From Candidatus Saccharibacteria bacterium CG2_30_41_52 (GTDB taxonomy: Bacteria; Patescibacteriota; Saccharimonadia; Saccharimonadales; Saccharimonadaceae): a stretch of 64,000 nt of DNA. The notes under the pieces are model-generated. The model did not search any database and had not been told where the DNA came from. It worked only from the letters and a program-made list of their open reading frames with translations. Below are positions 20,446 through 29,180 of the stretch, one piece after another; position 1 is the stretch's first letter, and the number at the start of each line of letters is the position of its first letter. The translations under genes were made by a program, and so were the position numbers. Location: the NCBI GenBank assembly GCA_001873625.1, contig MNZN01000001.1:1-64000 (forward strand), in the 5' to 3' direction.

Positions 20446-20479
20446 AAAAAATAAGCGCCGATTGAGGCGCTTATTTTTT
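20446..20479. terminator. Bidirectional terminator overlapping the rel stop
   Basis: AAAAAATAAGCGCC pairs with GGCGCTTATTTTTT around GATTGA. The 3' arm contains the rel stop codon (20471-20473). Confidence 0.9.
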
Positions 20480-22036
20480 ACGTCTGGGACGAATTTTTAT
20501 GCGTTTGATGTTGCGAACGGTTTTTTCACGAATCATTTTGCTAGTGTCGATAACGTTCATTAGACCTAGGTGGCCTAACTGAGTGCGCAATTTATTGCGG
20601 GCATGAGTGGTGGTGATTAAATTTTTCCAGTCTGACTTTGGTAATGATAATTTGCGCGTGATAACCTCGACGATGTCGCCATTTTGTAATGGTTTATCAA
20701 ACGGATGAATCTTGCCATTAACTTGGAAACTGTAGGCGTGTTTACCGATGTCGCTGTGAACCAAATATGCGAAATCAAGCGGTAAAGCTCCTTCGGGTAA
20801 ATTATAAATATCGCCTTTGGGTGAATGTACGAATATACGATTACCAAATAGGTCAATTTGTAATTGATCGCGCGATATTTCTTCGCCGTTCTTCAGCTTT
20901 GTGACGACTTCTTGCAGCTGGGTTATCCATTGCATGTTGTTTGGCAATGTTGAGCTAGGGCGGCCTGATTTGTAGTCTTTGGTTCGTTTTTGTTCGTTGT
21001 AATGAAAACTAGCGGCAAGTCCTCGTTCTGCAAATTCGTGCATTTCAAAAGTACGTATTTGGAATTCAACGATTTGTTTATTGTGTGTGATCACTGTTGT
21101 GTGGAGACTTTGATAACCATTTGGTTTTGGAGTAGAAATATAATCTTTGATACGGCTAATCATAATTGGTTGGTATAGACTATGCAAAATACCAAGTATT
21201 AAATAACAATCCTCTTTACGATCAACAATAATGCGTAACGCCATTAAATCATGAATATCGTCAATGTTGTTATTATATTTCTGAAGTTTTAAATATAAAC
21301 TATAAATGCTTTTAATGCGGCTATCGATTTCGGCTTTAATTCCATATTCTTTGAGTGTTTTTTCAACTTCTTGGTGAACTTCTTGTAACTGGCGTGAGTT
21401 TTTACCGAGCCGTTTCGCAACAAGATTCTTTAAACGTTTGAACTCGACCGGATCTAGATAACTAAAAGCTAATTCTTCGATTTGTAGCCGAACTCGCCCC
21501 ATGCCTAGTCGGTCGGCCATAGGTCCAAAAACCTCTAGTGATTCGCGAGCTATTTTTTGTTGTTTTTCGGGCGATTTGTATTTTAATGTCGACAGATTAT
21601 GAAGGCGGTCGGCTAATTTGATGATGAGAACACGAATGTCCTGTCCAACGGCAATAAGCAATTTTGACAAATTGTCTTTGGTTTGCGGTAAATAATTCGT
21701 CAGGTTTTCCATATCGGCACTGGCTTTGGATACTTTAGTAACACCATCGACAATAAAGGCAACGTCGCCGCCGAATAAACTTTCAATTGTACTGAGGCTG
21801 ACGGTTGTGTCTTCGACTATGTCGTGCAAAACTCCGGCTATAACACTGTCGATGTCCATTCCCCATAATATTAATTTATTAGCGACAAAAATTGGATGGT
21901 TGATGTAGGGCTCGCCGCTGTCACGCTTTTGATCGGCATGAGCTGTGGAAGCGAACTCGATTGCATGCTCAAGCTCAAGAATCTGATTTACATCGTATAA
22001 TTGCTTAGCACGCTTCAATAATTCCATTTTCTCCAT
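20471..22036 (-). CDS. rel: Short RelA/SpoT-type (p)ppGpp synthetase/hydrolase
   Basis: A 521-residue protein. The HD hydrolase domain (about 20-190) keeps HP at 47-48 and HDIVEDT at 71-77. The synthetase domain (about 235-370) keeps the key PKPNGYQSLHTTV and EFQIRT blocks. A TGS domain (about 405-465) follows. The protein ends soon after TGS, without the helical and ACT domains of long Rel proteins, so ribosome-linked control should differ. ATG 22036 could be used from a leader of about 5 bases; a second ATG 9 bases on has GGAG before it. Confidence 0.92.
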   Translation of the reverse strand: MEKMELLKRAKQLYDVNQILELEHAIEFASTAHADQKRDSGEPYINHPIFVANKLILWGMDIDSVIAGVLHDIVEDTTVSLSTIESLFGGDVAFIVDGVTKVSKASADMENLTNYLPQTKDNLSKLLIAVGQDIRVLIIKLADRLHNLSTLKYKSPEKQQKIARESLEVFGPMADRLGMGRVRLQIEELAFSYLDPVEFKRLKNLVAKRLGKNSRQLQEVHQEVEKTLKEYGIKAEIDSRIKSIYSLYLKLQKYNNNIDDIHDLMALRIIVDRKEDCYLILGILHSLYQPIMISRIKDYISTPKPNGYQSLHTTVITHNKQIVEFQIRTFEMHEFAERGLAASFHYNEQKRTKDYKSGRPSSTLPNNMQWITQLQEVVTKLKNGEEISRDQLQIDLFGNRIFVHSPKGDIYNLPEGALPLDFAYLVHSDIGKHAYSFQVNGKIHPFDKPLQNGDIVEVITRKLSLPKSDWKNLITTTHARNKLRTQLGHLGLMNVIDTSKMIREKTVRNIKRIKIRPRRKK

Positions 22037-22134: not shown

Positions 22135-23151
22135 ATGGGCAAAATAAAAATTGGTATTAATGGGTTTGGTAGGATAGGACGAAACGCTTTTAAAATTGCG
22201 TTTGAACGCAGTGATATTGAAATTATTGCCATAAATGACTTAACTGATGCCAAAACTTTGGCATATTTATTAAAACATGACAATAATTATGGTACATATC
22301 AACGTGATGTTACGTATAGCGATGATGAAATTATTGTAGGTGACCAACATATCAAAATATTGGCTCGCGACAATCCAGCTGGCATTCCGTGGGGAGATTT
22401 AGGAGTTGATATAGTTATTGAATCAACTGGCAGATTTACAACTCGTGAATATGCAGCAATGCACATCGAAGCTGGTGCCAAAAAAGTAGTAATTGGTTCT
22501 CCAGCCAGAGACGAAGCAGTTGATATTATAGTCATCGGCGTTAACGAAGACGTTATAAAAAGTGAAAATGCCATTATTAGCAATGCTAGCCCAACGACAA
22601 ATTCAGTCGGATCGTTATTAGCTATTTTGGATGGCGAATTTGGTGTCCAGAAATCAATGCTGATGACTATTCATAGTTATACCTCGTCACAGACTTTAGT
22701 TGGCTCTTCGGCTAATGATTTGCGCGAAGGCCGTTCGGCTAGTGAAAATATTGTACCGTCAACGACTAGCGCGGTGGCTTCACTTGCCAAAGCTTTGCCT
22801 CAATTGGAAGGTAAAATTGATGGTTTGAGTGTTCGCGTGCCAACGTCGGTTGTATCACTAAGCGACGTCACGGTTCTATTGGGTCGCAATACAACAGCAA
22901 ATAAAATCAATGAAGTTATTACGCGCGCTGTCAGTGAACCATTTTATCAAGGCATACTCGGTGTCAGTAACGAACCTCTCGTTAGCCGTGACTACATTGG
23001 CAATAGCCATTCTGGCGTAGTTGATTTGTTATTGACTAAAGTTGTCGGTGGAAATATGGCTAAAATAATGGTTTGGTACGACAACGAATGGGGCTATTGC
23101 AATCGCTTAGTTGAATTAGTCGCAGACATCGGTCGTGGCTTGCATAACTAA
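22135..23151 (+). CDS. GAPDH-family protein lacking the catalytic cysteine
   Basis: A 338-residue protein with the full glyceraldehyde-3-phosphate dehydrogenase layout: NAD site INGFGRIGR (8-16), His180 in the IHSYTS block, RVPTSVVSLSD, and C-terminal WYDNEWGYCNR. The invariant active-site SNASCTTNC reads SNASPTTNS, so the nucleophilic Cys is Pro153 (codon CCA at 22591-22593) and the second Cys is Ser. Without the thiol it cannot form the thioacyl intermediate of normal GAPDH. It may be an NAD(P)-binding paralogue with another role. It heads a block of pentose and triose enzymes, but the next gene has its own promoter. Confidence 0.85.
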   Translation: MGKIKIGINGFGRIGRNAFKIAFERSDIEIIAINDLTDAKTLAYLLKHDNNYGTYQRDVTYSDDEIIVGDQHIKILARDNPAGIPWGDLGVDIVIESTGRFTTREYAAMHIEAGAKKVVIGSPARDEAVDIIVIGVNEDVIKSENAIISNASPTTNSVGSLLAILDGEFGVQKSMLMTIHSYTSSQTLVGSSANDLREGRSASENIVPSTTSAVASLAKALPQLEGKIDGLSVRVPTSVVSLSDVTVLLGRNTTANKINEVITRAVSEPFYQGILGVSNEPLVSRDYIGNSHSGVVDLLLTKVVGGNMAKIMVWYDNEWGYCNRLVELVADIGRGLHN

Positions 23152-23175: not shown

Positions 23176-23625
23176 ATGAAGATATTTATCGGTAGTGATC
23201 ACATGGGCTTTCATTTGAAAGAAAAAGTTTTTGCATATTTAGCAAAACATGGTTATGAGGTTGAAGATGTTGGCGACCAAACATTGGATCCAAATGATGA
23301 TTTTCCTGAATTTGCACAGGCTGCTGCCTTCAAGGTTATTGGCAGCATTGATACTGATCCGCGGGCAATTTTGTTGTGCGGTGGTGGTCAAGGTATGGCT
23401 ATGGCGGCTAATAGGTTTCGCGGTATTCGCGCTAGTGTTATTTGGGACGCTTTTGAGGCAAAAATGACTCGAAATGATAATGACAGTAATGTACTATGTT
23501 TACCATCAAGAATCCTTGAAGATGACAACAGGGCCTGGGAAGGCATATTAGAGACTTGGCTTAACACGCCTTTTGCTGGCGCTGTTCGATATAAACGCCG
23601 CAACGCGCAGATTGATGAGTTTTAA
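23176..23625 (+). CDS. rpiB: RpiB/LacAB-type sugar-phosphate isomerase, divergent active site
   Basis: A 149-residue RpiB-like protein, expected to interconvert ribose-5-P and ribulose-5-P. It has N-terminal GSDHMGF, the base Cys68 in LLCGGGQG, and the C-terminal Arg-rich tail. The family Thr two residues after the Cys is Gly, and the His of RxHND is Asp101 (RNDNDSN). Activity is plausible but not certain. Its stop is followed directly by the rpe start (23626). Confidence 0.8.
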   Translation: MKIFIGSDHMGFHLKEKVFAYLAKHGYEVEDVGDQTLDPNDDFPEFAQAAAFKVIGSIDTDPRAILLCGGGQGMAMAANRFRGIRASVIWDAFEAKMTRNDNDSNVLCLPSRILEDDNRAWEGILETWLNTPFAGAVRYKRRNAQIDEF

Positions 23626-24270
23626 ATGAGCATAATTGCACCAGCTATTTTGGTTGAAACCGATGAACAATACAAAGCGTCAATTGAAAGATTAACGCCA
23701 TTTGTCCAACGCGTGCATATTGATATTAGTGATGGCGAGTTTGCGCCAGTCTTTTTGGTTGAACCTGAAAAACTGTGGTGGCCCAAAGAATGGATAGTTG
23801 ATATTCATGCTATGGTTATGCACCCAATGGATTATGTTGATAGATTAATTGCTTTAAAACCGCATTTAATCACATTTCATGCTGAAACTGGTGTAAATCT
23901 GATACCTATTATGGAAAAAATAAAAAAAGCTGGAATTAAGACTGGTATAGCGTTATTAAAACCAACAGTTCCGGTAACAATTGCTGATGCGATTCGAGCA
24001 GCGGACCATGTTTTGGTATTTACAGGTGATCTTGGTCATTACGGTGGAAGTGCCAGTTTGATGCAGCTAGAAAAAGTTCGACTAATTAAAGTTATTAATC
24101 CTAATGTTGAAATTGGATGGGATGGTGGTGTGAGTGTTGATAACGCGTTTACTTTGACTCAAGGTGGCGTTAATGTGCTAAACGTTGGTGGGGCAATCGG
24201 AAATTCCGAAGATCCCGCTAGTGTTTATGCTACACTTGTAAGAGAAATTAATAAACAAGGGGTGATTTAG
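23626..24270 (+). CDS. rpe: Ribulose-phosphate 3-epimerase-like protein
   Basis: A 214-residue TIM-barrel protein, divergent but with the epimerase metal and acid-base positions: VHIDISDG (His and Asp), DIHAM (His), FHAE, and GWDGGVS (Asp). The family phosphate loops are recognisable (LKPTVP and GGAIGNS). It should interconvert ribulose-5-P and xylulose-5-P, fitting the genes on both sides. It abuts rpiB with no gap and is 4 bases from the transketolase start. Confidence 0.8.
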   Translation: MSIIAPAILVETDEQYKASIERLTPFVQRVHIDISDGEFAPVFLVEPEKLWWPKEWIVDIHAMVMHPMDYVDRLIALKPHLITFHAETGVNLIPIMEKIKKAGIKTGIALLKPTVPVTIADAIRAADHVLVFTGDLGHYGGSASLMQLEKVRLIKVINPNVEIGWDGGVSVDNAFTLTQGGVNVLNVGGAIGNSEDPASVYATLVREINKQGVI

Positions 24271-24274
24271 TACG

Positions 24275-25138
24275 GTGGGCGGACAACTAAATTTGGTTCA
24301 ATTGCAACACAAAGCAAATGACTTGCGTCAAGATGTGATTCGCATGCTGGAAGCGGCAGGTAGCGGACACACCGCTGGATCTTTGGGTATGGCTGATATT
24401 CTAACGGCACTTTATTTTCATATTTTAAACATTGAGCCCAAAAACCCTACTTGGTCAGATCGCGATATATTTTTACTTAGCAACGGTCACACCGTACCGA
24501 TTCAATATGCTGCCATGGCAGAAGCCGGATATTTTGAAAAAGATGAATTAATGACGTTACGTAAATTAGGCAGTCGTTTGCAGGGTCATCCTGAACGAAC
24601 GATGTTACCCGGTCTTGAAAATACCAGTGGTCCACTTGGCAGTGGCTTGTCGCAAGCTTGTGGAGTTGCGTATTCTTTTCAATATTTAGATAATCAAAAA
24701 CATCGTTTTGTTTATACGATAATGGGTGATGGTGAACTAGATGAGGGCAATGTCTGGGAAGCAGCTATGTTTGCTGGAAAATACAAACTTTCACAACTAA
24801 TCTGTTTTATCGATCGCAATAACATTCAAATTGATGGCAGTACCGAAGATGTCATGCCACTGGAAGATTTGCACGCTAAATGGGAATCGTTCGGTTGGTA
24901 TGTTATCGATATTGATGGCAATAAAATCCAAACCATCATTGATACTGTAAACACCTCTAAGGCTATTACAAATAGGCCAGTTATGATTATTGCTCATACA
25001 GTTCCGGGTAAAGGCGTTGATTTTATGGAATATGATTGCAAATGGCATGGTGTATCGCCGAATAAAGAACAGGCTGAAAAAGCTTTGCAGCAATTGCAGG
25101 CAAAGGGCAGCAAAATTGATTCAGGAGATATCGAGTAA
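24275..25138 (+). CDS. Transketolase, N-terminal (thiamine pyrophosphate) subunit
   Basis: A 287-residue split-type subunit. It has GHTAGSLGMADILTAL, SNGHT, and the TPP motif GDGELDEGNVWEA...IDRNNIQIDG. The start is GTG 24275, with AAGGGGTGA 10-18 bases upstream inside the rpe end. It works with the next gene to move two-carbon units between sugar phosphates. The split organisation is common in archaea and Patescibacteria. Confidence 0.93.
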   Translation: MGGQLNLVQLQHKANDLRQDVIRMLEAAGSGHTAGSLGMADILTALYFHILNIEPKNPTWSDRDIFLLSNGHTVPIQYAAMAEAGYFEKDELMTLRKLGSRLQGHPERTMLPGLENTSGPLGSGLSQACGVAYSFQYLDNQKHRFVYTIMGDGELDEGNVWEAAMFAGKYKLSQLICFIDRNNIQIDGSTEDVMPLEDLHAKWESFGWYVIDIDGNKIQTIIDTVNTSKAITNRPVMIIAHTVPGKGVDFMEYDCKWHGVSPNKEQAEKALQQLQAKGSKIDSGDIE

Positions 25139-26136
25139 TGAGTGATTATCTGATTAATCCAAATGTGCTAAATGATGATGTTGAAGCGGATACTATCCGT
25201 GGTGGTTTTGGTCGCGGCTTGAAGGCTGCCGGTGAGGCAAACAATCAGATTGTTGCACTATGCGCTGATTTGACCGAAAGCGTTCAGGTTAATATATTTC
25301 GTGAAGCATATCCTGAGCGCTTTATTCAAACTGGTATTGCTGAACAAAACTTAGTTGCTGTTGCTAGCGGCTTGGCGCTAGCTGGCAAAATTCCTTTTGC
25401 CGCTAGTTACGCTGCTTTTAACCCAGGACGTAACTGGGAACAGATTAAAACGACAGTTTGTATCAATGATCAACCAGTCAAGATTGTTGGCGGACATGCT
25501 GGCATCGGTGTCGGTCCTGATGGTGCAACTCACCAAATGCTCGAAGATATTGCGATTATGCGCGTGTTACCAAACATGGTAGTTGTTGTGCCTGGCGATG
25601 CTATCGAAGCCGAAAAGGCAACTAGGGCGATTGCTGAAAATGGCAAGCCAAGTTATATACGATTGGCCCGTGTCAAAACTCCGATAATTAGTACGCTTGA
25701 ATCGCCATTCGAAATTGGCAAAGCCTATGTTTTACGTGAGGGACATGATGTTAGTTTGATGGGTACGGGTGTAATGACATATCAATTACTAGTCGCTGCT
25801 AAATTGCTATCGGATATTGGAATTAATGCTGAGGTTGTGCACGTGCCAACGATTAAACCTTTAGATAATGATACAATTTTAGCTAGTGCTAGACGCACCG
25901 GACGAGTTGTTACTGCCGAAGAAGCCCAGATTGCTGGTGGTTTTGGTGGTGCGGTTGCTGAACTATTGAGTGAAAAAATGCCAACACCATTGATGCGTAT
26001 CGGTATCTGCGATAGATACGGCGAAAGTGGTGAACCGGCTCAATTATTTGAATTCTTTGGATTAACGGGCGAACATATTGCTAAAAAAGTTTCAGATTTT
26101 GTTAATAATGTGCCTCAATATCACCGAGAGTATTAA
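25138..26136 (+). CDS. Transketolase, C-terminal subunit
   Basis: A 332-residue protein with the pyrimidine-binding domain (about 15-185; TGIAEQNLVAVASGLA holds the catalytic Glu) and the C-terminal domain (about 200-325). The ATG overlaps the stop of the N-terminal subunit (TAATG), so the two are made together. Confidence 0.93.
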   Translation: MSDYLINPNVLNDDVEADTIRGGFGRGLKAAGEANNQIVALCADLTESVQVNIFREAYPERFIQTGIAEQNLVAVASGLALAGKIPFAASYAAFNPGRNWEQIKTTVCINDQPVKIVGGHAGIGVGPDGATHQMLEDIAIMRVLPNMVVVVPGDAIEAEKATRAIAENGKPSYIRLARVKTPIISTLESPFEIGKAYVLREGHDVSLMGTGVMTYQLLVAAKLLSDIGINAEVVHVPTIKPLDNDTILASARRTGRVVTAEEAQIAGGFGGAVAELLSEKMPTPLMRIGICDRYGESGEPAQLFEFFGLTGEHIAKKVSDFVNNVPQYHREY

Positions 26137-26148
26137 GGAATATATTAT

Positions 26149-27093
26149 ATGGCTTTATCAATAGAACAAATCCGAGACAACACTGCTCGCGCCCGACAAT
26201 TGATGCAGCGTAGCCGCGATGAACATTTTTCAATTGGTGCGTTTAATATGGACAATCAAGATGTATTGGTTGCGATATCCAGAGCAGCTCAAAAACTAAA
26301 TTCACCAGTGTTAGTTGAAGTAACTCACGACGAAGTAACATCTATTGGTATCCAAAATGTTCGTGATTTGGTTGATAATTGTAAGATTGAATATGGTATT
26401 GAAATGTATGTTAATTTAGACCATGGCCGAAGTGTTGAAGTGTCAAAACATGCGATTGATGCCGGTTTTGAATTTGTTCATATTGATGTTAGTCAGGCGA
26501 ACCACGACGCGTCCGACGCAGAAATTATTCGCCAAACACGCGAAGTTGTCGAATATGCTAAATACACTGGGGCGCTAGTCGAAGGCGAGCCACATTATTT
26601 TGGCGGCAGTAGTAATGTTCATGCCGAAGATATTGATTATGAAGAGATAAAGATGACTTTTACAAAGCCAGAGGCTGCCGATGCTTTCATCAAGGCGACA
26701 GGTATTGATATATTTGCAGCAGCAATAGGTAATCTTCATGGCAAGTATCCGGTTCCAAAAATTTTAGACATTGAACTTTTAAAGCAGATTAGAAATACAA
26801 TTAGTCAAACCACTACAATCAGTTTGCATGGTGGTAGTGATACGCCAGCCCATTATTTCACTGAAGCGGCTCAAGTTGGTGTTGGCAAAGTTAATATAAA
26901 CAGTGATTTACGATATACATACCGCACAAATTTGGAAAAAGTCCTGGCTGATAATCCAGAACAATTTGCCGTCGTCAAAATTATGGAACCAGTTCGTCAA
27001 GCCGTCCAGGCGGTTGTCGAAGAAAAAATTGCAGCACTTGGGTCAGCCAATAAGGCGGAAATGCTAGCCCACCTTAAAGGTAATTCGATTTAG
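26149..27093 (+). CDS. Class II fructose-bisphosphate aldolase family
   Basis: A 314-residue TIM-barrel Zn aldolase. It has IGAFNMDN at the N-terminus, VNLDHG (Zn His), the GNLHGKYP and SLHGGSDT blocks (further Zn His residues), and NINSDLR. It splits or forms fructose-1,6-bisphosphate, or a related ketose bisphosphate. AAGGA precedes ATG 26149. It is convergent with tal, with a 1-base gap and no visible terminator between them. Confidence 0.88.
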   Translation: MALSIEQIRDNTARARQLMQRSRDEHFSIGAFNMDNQDVLVAISRAAQKLNSPVLVEVTHDEVTSIGIQNVRDLVDNCKIEYGIEMYVNLDHGRSVEVSKHAIDAGFEFVHIDVSQANHDASDAEIIRQTREVVEYAKYTGALVEGEPHYFGGSSNVHAEDIDYEEIKMTFTKPEAADAFIKATGIDIFAAAIGNLHGKYPVPKILDIELLKQIRNTISQTTTISLHGGSDTPAHYFTEAAQVGVGKVNINSDLRYTYRTNLEKVLADNPEQFAVVKIMEPVRQAVQAVVEEKIAALGSANKAEMLAHLKGNSI

Positions 27094-27094
27094 A

Positions 27095-28177
27095 TTATAA
27101 ACTGGCTTTTTTAGTTTCGATTGCGTTTAGTAATGACGCGTAAGATGCTTTAAATTTTTCAACACCTTCGTTTTCAAGAACTAGTGATACATCGCTCATG
27201 TCGACGCCGACTGCCTTAAGTTTGGCAAGCATTTTATGCGCATTTTCAATATCAACCATAGTGACTGATTTAGCATCAGCGGGCAAATGGTCCAAAATAC
27301 GTGCAATTGTATCTTCCGGCAAGGTATTAATTGATAGTGGAGTAAGCAGATTGCTGACATACAACAAATCATTATAGGCAGGGTTTTTAGTTGAAGTTGA
27401 TGCCCATAGTAATCTCTGGACTGATGGTCCGTGGCTGTCTATGACGGCTTCTTTGCCCATGCGGTCCAAGAATATGTCATATGCAACGATAGCTTGAGCA
27501 ACGGCTGATTTGCCGCGTAAAGACATAGCTTCTTCGGTTCCGATTGCTTCAAGGCGTTTGTCGGTTTCGGTGTCGACGCGGCTGATAAAGAACGAAGCAA
27601 CGCTACGAGCAGAATTGCCAGAGCCAGTCATATGAGTATCTTTGAAGGCGGTAATAACGTCTTGGTAACGATCAAGGCTAAAAATCAAAGTGACATTGAC
27701 ATTGATACCGCTCCCCAACAGTTCGCGAATAGCCGGAACACCAGCCTTCGTTGCAGGTACTTTGATCAATAGGTTAGGCAGATTTAATTCGTTCCACAGT
27801 TGCTTGGCTTGTTTGATTGTGGCTTCGGTGTCGTCGGCTAGGTTAGGTGACACTTCCAGTGATACGTATCCGTCTTCGCCGTTAGATTCGTGCCAAATTG
27901 GCTCTAATAATTTTGCAGAGGCACGAATATCTTCGATGGCTAGTTTAAAGAAAATTTCTTCGTTACTTAAGCCGATATTGGCGTATTCTTTGATTTTTTC
28001 GTCATAAGAATCGCTGCCTTTTATAGCGTTTTCCAAGATAGTCGGGTTAGAGGTTAAACCTCGAACACCGTTATTGATAAATTGTTGTAGTCGTCCGGAT
28101 TCAACTAATTCTCGTGAGAGATTGTCAATCCATGGGCTCTGTTGAAAGTTGGTGTGTAATTTTTGTAGATTTGTCAT
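27095..28177 (-). CDS. tal: Transaldolase
   Basis: A 360-residue protein of the longer transaldolase type also found in Actinobacteria: GVRGLTSNPTI, the Schiff-base Lys in LLIKVPAT, and LLWASTSTKNP. It completes the non-oxidative pentose pathway with transketolase, Rpe and RpiB on the opposite strand. A minus-strand TATAAT ends 9 bases before the ATG, suggesting a leader of 0-2 bases. Confidence 0.93.
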   Translation of the reverse strand: MTNLQKLHTNFQQSPWIDNLSRELVESGRLQQFINNGVRGLTSNPTILENAIKGSDSYDEKIKEYANIGLSNEEIFFKLAIEDIRASAKLLEPIWHESNGEDGYVSLEVSPNLADDTEATIKQAKQLWNELNLPNLLIKVPATKAGVPAIRELLGSGINVNVTLIFSLDRYQDVITAFKDTHMTGSGNSARSVASFFISRVDTETDKRLEAIGTEEAMSLRGKSAVAQAIVAYDIFLDRMGKEAVIDSHGPSVQRLLWASTSTKNPAYNDLLYVSNLLTPLSINTLPEDTIARILDHLPADAKSVTMVDIENAHKMLAKLKAVGVDMSDVSLVLENEGVEKFKASYASLLNAIETKKASL

Positions 28178-28201: not shown

Positions 28202-28210
28202 TATTATAAT
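28202..28210 (+). promoter_or_regulatory. -10 of the PfkB kinase gene; decides its start
   Basis: Overlapping TATTAT (28202-28207) and TATAAT (28205-28210). An in-frame ATG at 28209 lies inside the box, so the next ATG, 28215, is the likely start (8 bases from the first box). Confidence 0.6.
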
Positions 28211-28214
28211 GTAT

Positions 28215-29180
28215 ATGGTTAGAATTTGTTCAATCGGGGCGGCTTCTCAGGATGTGTTTATGTCTGGCAAAGACATTAAATCTCATTTGGATCCTGTCGA
28301 ACATGTTGATGTTGAATCTTTTAAGCTTGGAGCAAAACTCGAAGCTGAAAAGATAGATTTTGCAACTGGTGGCGGTGCCACAAATGCCGCTGTGACTTTT
28401 GCACGTCAGGGATTAGACAGCAGTTTTATTGGTAAACTTGGCCGGGACATTTCTGCACATGGTGTGATTGTCGAATTGGATAACGAAAACGTTAATACCC
28501 AAAATGTTGTTTATGACGAAACCAACGGGACTCAGTATTCTACGATTTTATTAACCGACAGTGGTGAACGAACGATCCTTATTTATCGTGGAGTTGCCAA
28601 TAGTCATAAGCCTGCAGATTACGAAAACCTTGATTTTACACAGTATGACTGGTTGTATATTTCGTCATTCGGCGGGGCGATGGATGCACTGGACTGCATA
28701 TTTCAAATAGCATCGAGATTGGGTAAGAAAATAGCTTTTAACCCAGGCGGTGCAGAACTAGCACAAATGGATAAATTAAAACCACTGCTTGAAGATGTTG
28801 AGATATTGATTGTTAACAAAGATGAGGCGCAGTTGATTGTTGAAGGTGGAAATATAGAAGAATTAGCTCGTCATCTGTTGCATTTTGTGCCACTGGCTAT
28901 TGTTAGCGATGGACCAAATGGTGTAACTGCCTGTGATGGCAAAACTGTTGTTAGGGCCGGAATGTATGAAGATGTTAAAGTTGTCGATCGCACTGGCGCT
29001 GGTGATGCGTTTGGTTCAGGTTTTCTAAGTCAATGGGTGATTGGTCGTTCGTTGAAGGATTCAATTGTTTTCGCTAGTGCAAACTCGACTTCTGTGGTTA
29101 CTAAAATTGGCGCCAAAGCTGGGATTTTATCAAAAGGTGTTGTATTGCACGCTATGCCGCTTAGCGAGAAACCATTTTAG
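28215..29180 (+). CDS. PfkB-family sugar kinase
   Basis: A 321-residue ribokinase-fold kinase. It has the N-terminal GGGATNAAV substrate block and the C-terminal DRTGAGDAFGSGF with the catalytic Asp and anion hole. The substrate is not fixed by sequence: ribose, fructose, fructose-6-P or a nucleoside are possible. No 6-phosphofructokinase of the PfkA type is seen in the window, so a role feeding the pentose block is attractive but inferred. The start at 28215 is preferred for promoter geometry. Confidence 0.85.
   Translation: MVRICSIGAASQDVFMSGKDIKSHLDPVEHVDVESFKLGAKLEAEKIDFATGGGATNAAVTFARQGLDSSFIGKLGRDISAHGVIVELDNENVNTQNVVYDETNGTQYSTILLTDSGERTILIYRGVANSHKPADYENLDFTQYDWLYISSFGGAMDALDCIFQIASRLGKKIAFNPGGAELAQMDKLKPLLEDVEILIVNKDEAQLIVEGGNIEELARHLLHFVPLAIVSDGPNGVTACDGKTVVRAGMYEDVKVVDRTGAGDAFGSGFLSQWVIGRSLKDSIVFASANSTSVVTKIGAKAGILSKGVVLHAMPLSEKPF

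Follow-up and report, generated by a model that had tools for sequence, protein, structure and literature searches.

A natural exchange of the catalytic cysteine of GAPDH for proline has been described in TbGAPDHL (Tb927.9.9820), a GAPDH-like protein of the trypanosomatid flagellum, in which Cys152 is replaced and which is predicted to be inactive; its cofactor pocket is apparently kept in its model, it evolves faster than active GAPDHs, and it has a degenerate PGK-like partner (PMC4106842). No description of a bacterial Cys-less GAPDH was found in the open-access literature, which is not proof of absence. Surveys of CPR bacteria treat TIM, GAPDH and PGK as essentially universal and put absences down to missing data (PMC7304191, PMC8406219), and one soil Saccharibacterium has been described as combining a phosphoketolase and a neighbouring acetate kinase with glycolysis as far as pyruvate (PMC6031116). 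Synthetic non-oxidative glycolysis (Bogorad 2013, cited in PMC12965863) is presented as a research construct.

The GAPDH homologue considered here is encoded in a 64,000-nucleotide stretch of Candidatus Saccharibacteria bacterium CG2_30_41_52 (hereafter the window), and shares with TbGAPDHL the Cys-to-Pro exchange at the catalytic site. However, TbGAPDHL is eukaryotic and flagellar and occurs beside active GAPDHs, whereas the window protein is bacterial and the only copy of its genome; similarly, the PGK-like partner of the former is degenerate, whereas PGK has been lost outright in the Saccharibacteria clade. As the proline-bearing proteins are nested in Saccharibacteria GAPDHs, their origin is independent of that of TbGAPDHL.

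The gene (Table 1) has an ATG start and a stop-free frame of 338 aa that reads SNASPTTNS at the catalytic site. The protein resembles type I phosphorylating GAPDH (GapA; TIGR01534, PF00044/PF02800) in its full-length fold, NAD loop, His180 and Arg234, with near full-length Pfam matches to Gp_dh_N (2.5e-37) and Gp_dh_C (1e-42), but Pro153 takes the place of the cysteine of the S-x-A-S-C-T-T-N motif that characterizes the type I enzyme, and the score falls just below the cut-off of the NCBIfam GAPDH-I (TIGR01534) equivalog (353.7 vs 367.2 bits). The GINGFGRIGR NAD loop, Ser152, Thr154 and Arg234 are retained in the proline-type GAPDHs, as is His180 in all four of them. GAPDHs are also its closest relatives of solved structure. 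The matches listed by Foldseek for the AlphaFold (AF2) model (mean pLDDT 94.6) are all GAPDHs, with TM values of about 0.95 (including 1nbo and 1gd1); crystal structures of the B. stearothermophilus mutants C149A and C149S with NAD+ (1npt, 1nq5) are among them. To go by the titles of these entries, a Cys-less GAPDH folds and binds NAD+; these mutants are engineered, however, whereas the window protein is natural and has proline and further changes. In the model, the active-site helix spans residues 153-169 and Pro153 is its first residue. Proline is well tolerated at the first position of a helix, so the exchange would be compatible with the fold.

The preliminary description of this gene is confirmed as an observation, and supported in part as an interpretation; the context that matters most for the latter, the loss of PGK and the presence of phosphoketolase with acetate kinase throughout the clade (see below), was not visible to it. 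It had reported proline for the catalytic cysteine, which the CCA codon bears out, and an NAD site, His180 and fold that look intact, in agreement with the retained residues and the model; it had placed an intact gene at the head of a sugar block, and the full open frame indeed stands before the pentose-phosphate genes. We agree with it that, without the catalytic cysteine, the usual oxidation-phosphorylation should not be able to take place, and we infer, from these sequence features, that the protein lacks dehydrogenase activity.

Table 1. Features of the GAPDH locus and the adjoining sugar block (positions in the window)
Feature	Position	Strand	Basis or remark
RelA/SpoT family protein, divergent neighbour; marks conserved relA-gapdh-rpiB junction	20471..22036	-	
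GAPDH-I homologue lacking catalytic Cys	22135..23151	+	ORF, Pfam; sole GAPDH in genome; AF2 pLDDT 94.6
CCA = Pro153 replacing catalytic Cys149 (B. stearothermophilus numbering)	22591..22593	+	sequence, model
Ribose-5-phosphate isomerase B (rpiB)	23176..23625	+	named from sequence only
Ribulose-phosphate 3-epimerase family (rpe)	23626..24270	+	match of almost full length, score under curated cut-off
Transketolase N-terminal half (split transketolase; tktN)	24275..25138	+	
Transketolase C-terminal half	25138..26136	+	
Class II fructose-bisphosphate aldolase family	26149..27093	+	
Transaldolase	27095..28177	-	429 bits, above curated cut-off
PfkB-family sugar kinase, ribokinase-like	28209..29180	+	

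One suggestion of the preliminary description, a paralogue beside a normal copy elsewhere, is not borne out at the completeness of this assembly: a search of the rest of the assembly (825 kb, 96.5% complete) at E values up to 10 found no second GAPDH, and GapN of the aldehyde-dehydrogenase type was found in none of the 28 genus genomes compared (the window genome is G000 in this set). Comparison of the relatives at the catalytic site revealed proline at the same codon in three more genomes of the genus, G005, G007 and G020 (CCA, CCG and CCA, respectively, against TGT in relatives), at 62-69% protein identity to the window protein, and cysteine in about 100 others from the family, the order and beyond. 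The frame is open over its full length in G000, G007 and G020, and cut by a contig end in G005; the G007 gene is also present as CAIUKF010000004.1 (L055) in a second collection. With proline at the same codon in three other assemblies of the genus, chance or error is excluded, and a sequencing error at Pro153 was rejected, as the residue lies within open frames in four separate assemblies. A degenerate-codon search for the proline motif in 295 genomes of the order, part of whose hits were checked at their loci, gave no further proline-type GAPDH among the hits checked: the one locus with GAPDH similarity (L135) belongs to the Cys-type genome G014, and the loci of matches in G184 and G158 contain no GAPDH.

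Could another thiol, a partner subunit or an error in the reads still hide a normal GAPDH function? G005, G007 and G020 possess a cysteine, Cys150, three residues before the site, which would favour such a restoration; however, the same residue (SCAS) occurs in normal Cys-type relatives (e.g. L100), and the only cysteine of the window protein, C322, is distant from the active site in sequence. As there is moreover no second GAPDH, the proline recurs between assemblies, and no PGK is present to use the product, hidden activity of this kind is hardly credible.

Maximum-likelihood analysis of 32 GAPDHs groups the four proline proteins in a single clade (99/91) within the Cys-type GAPDHs, with the Cys-type protein of G012 as sister (100/99). 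Since proline arose once, its tie to PGK loss represents one event, not a statistical series. A tree based on rpiB, rpe and tktN unites five GAPDH-bearing and nine GAPDH-less genomes, several of the total more than 95% complete, into a 14-genome clade (100/98), in which GAPDH is of the Cys type in one genome, of the Pro type in four and not found in nine, so that 13 of the 14 have either no GAPDH or the Pro type. Of the nine genomes without GAPDH, seven have relA directly beside rpiB with no GAPDH remnant, so that these losses are deletions and not assembly gaps (the relA junction is not covered in the other two, G024 and G026). G008 is without gapdh though nested with G007 and G020, and the role of the retained GAPDH is thus not essential everywhere. 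Across the genus, rpiB comes after gapdh or after the gapdh deletion junction. In G010 and G023 (L207, L211, L204, L210), an antisense second RpiB-like gene (about 36% identity) lies between gapdh and rpiB, and at L221 (G018:C52) fragments of rpiB (32-127), rpiB (1-38), gapdh (252-333) and rpe (70-214) follow in a row, through local rearrangement or mis-assembly.

Intact PGK is absent from all 14 genomes of this clade, including the four with proline, and the window genome therefore has no PGK to use 1,3-bisphosphoglycerate, as the pathway of a type I GAPDH demands. TIM is retained in all 14. Against the near-universal TIM-GAPDH-PGK core described for CPR bacteria, this clade stands out as exceptional. 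The gene order in relatives is PK-PGK-TIM (L175), and in G005, G007, G020 and G012 PK adjoins TIM, PGK having gone without a remnant. In the window genome, PK is reduced to a relic of 41 residues (L165:8366-8497, minus strand, contig C7 of G000; 48% identity, E 1.7e-5), beside tim where PK sits in relatives, and is otherwise absent. G012 has kept its Cys-type GAPDH without PGK, which indicates that an active-looking GAPDH is tolerated there. A truncated PGK, a 225-aa N-terminal piece directly before tim (L174:5230-5907), was observed in G013 and possibly represents an intermediate stage of PGK loss. As for the enzymes further down, nearly all PGK-bearing genomes of the genus lack it in the case of enolase (found only in G014) although they keep PK, whereas both enolase and PK are present in the PGK-less G005, G007, G008, G012 and G021.

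A codon model fitted to the GAPDH tree gave an omega of 0.029 in the background vs 0.075 in the proline clade (range for this clade, 0.070-0.075), values that are rough and indicative only as synonymous sites are saturated, and fixing omega at 1 in the proline clade costs about 297 log-likelihood units and is rejected. The window GAPDH gene is not decaying neutrally. No rise of omega accompanies the proline clade in rpiB and rpe; in tktN it goes from 0.026 to 0.066, 2.5-fold like GAPDH, perhaps from changed flux, and faster change is therefore not unique to GAPDH. Cys-type proteins share 120 invariant positions, of which 14-22 are broken in the proline sequences (0-6 in controls), and single members have substitutions at substrate or NAD contacts (T183I in G005, G212S in G000, S121G in two), an erosion that argues against strict ligand binding. 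Purifying selection combined with so many broken invariants points to a gene that is under constraint, although the demands on it have changed. Two of the marks of a GAPDH pseudoenzyme, an orthologous fold that has lost an essential catalytic residue and purifying selection on the gene, are found here.

These data also bear on two other readings. A slowly decaying pseudogene, drifting since PGK loss and awaiting the deletion seen in the nine GAPDH-less relatives, would agree with the repeated clean removal of gapdh in the same clade, an omega 2.5 times the background and the broken invariant positions; yet the rejection of omega = 1 contradicts drift, frames remain open over their full length in G000, G007 and G020 at 62-69% identity, and PK, which this genome really has lost, survives only as a relic of 41 residues, which makes such a decay quite improbable. 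A neofunctionalised enzyme, in which the kept NAD site and His180 serve a Cys-independent reaction (for example, a sugar phosphate made by the pentose-phosphate block could be oxidised or reduced non-covalently), would account for the retention of the NAD loop, His180, Arg234, Ser152 and Thr154, for the strong purifying selection, and for the stay of the gene at the head of that block. We nevertheless consider it unlikely, given that the active-site changes differ between members and give no single new conserved site, that the gene was lost in G008, and that no GAPDH-fold relative this close is known to carry out such Cys-independent chemistry.

How would a genome without this step of glycolysis draw ATP from sugars? 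Genes for phosphoketolase and acetate kinase, the pair expected for non-oxidative glycolysis, are present in the window genome and in all 14 genomes of the clade. The clade phosphoketolases are 69-86% identical to the copy of the window genome, which is of full length by Pfam, NCBIfam and PDB comparison, and about 44% identical to the other type of the genus, which occurs in some PGK-bearing relatives; of the motifs checked, most are intact. The PGK-bearing G004, G010, G015 and G023 have neither phosphoketolase nor acetate kinase. With transketolase, transaldolase, rpe, rpiB, FBA and TIM genes in addition, the window genome resembles both the bifid shunt and non-oxidative glycolysis. The bifid shunt still uses GAPDH, and non-oxidative glycolysis needs FBPase. 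Here lies a difference: GlpX, the only FBPase type tested, was not found, which counts against the reading given below, since a phosphoketolase route would need a sink for triose phosphate. An IMPase-family gene, considered as a candidate FBPase, stands beside PK only in G007 and G020 and has HisN as its best match. An ORF of about 520 aa (LGANGxQLSxQLAAAKA...) lies beside phosphoketolase in most PGK-less genomes checked (L241:6878-8452, minus strand; similar in L242, L244-L247, L251 and L254), and the copy of the window genome has no Pfam match.

Taken together, we consider it likely that the window GAPDH is a pseudoenzyme that followed the loss of PGK in a genome with a phosphoketolase route, and that it is kept probably for binding. 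Phosphoketolase and acetate kinase would probably supply ATP from sugar phosphates, bypassing the GAPDH/PGK step, and PGK was lost in the clade. Without PGK, the product of an active GAPDH would lead nowhere and its formation would use up triose phosphate, NAD+ and phosphate, so that GAPDH catalysis may have become useless or harmful. Two outcomes would have ensued: deletion of gapdh in several lineages, and the Cys-to-Pro exchange in one, where proline, as the first residue of the active-site helix, would keep the fold. Purifying selection has continued to act on the presumably dead protein, its target most likely being the binding of NAD(H), triose phosphate or partners from the pentose-phosphate block. 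The protein is thus probably retained for something other than catalysis, and a non-catalytic or altered role is the best guess that its sequence allows; the phosphoketolase flux, the order of events and the binding role are what we infer. A bolder version, which we put forward only tentatively, is that a natural GAPDH-free phosphoketolase route replaced the payoff phase of glycolysis in this clade, and that in one lineage the sole GAPDH became a dead NAD/triose-phosphate sensor or scaffold through a trypanosomatid-like Cys-to-Pro exchange.

Few features of metabolism are as conserved as GAPDH and its catalytic cysteine. The conserved pseudo-GAPDH is most likely real, its interest residing mainly in the evolutionary series that surrounds it, as living relatives display the stages: Cys-type GAPDH with PGK, Cys-type GAPDH without PGK, Pro-type GAPDH without PGK, and no GAPDH. 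The turning of a core enzyme into a pseudoenzyme can thus be traced here, in convergence with trypanosomes, and the case is a warning that an annotation of GAPDH as present does not mean running glycolysis. It also provides a testable idea for the ATP supply of these presumed epibionts.
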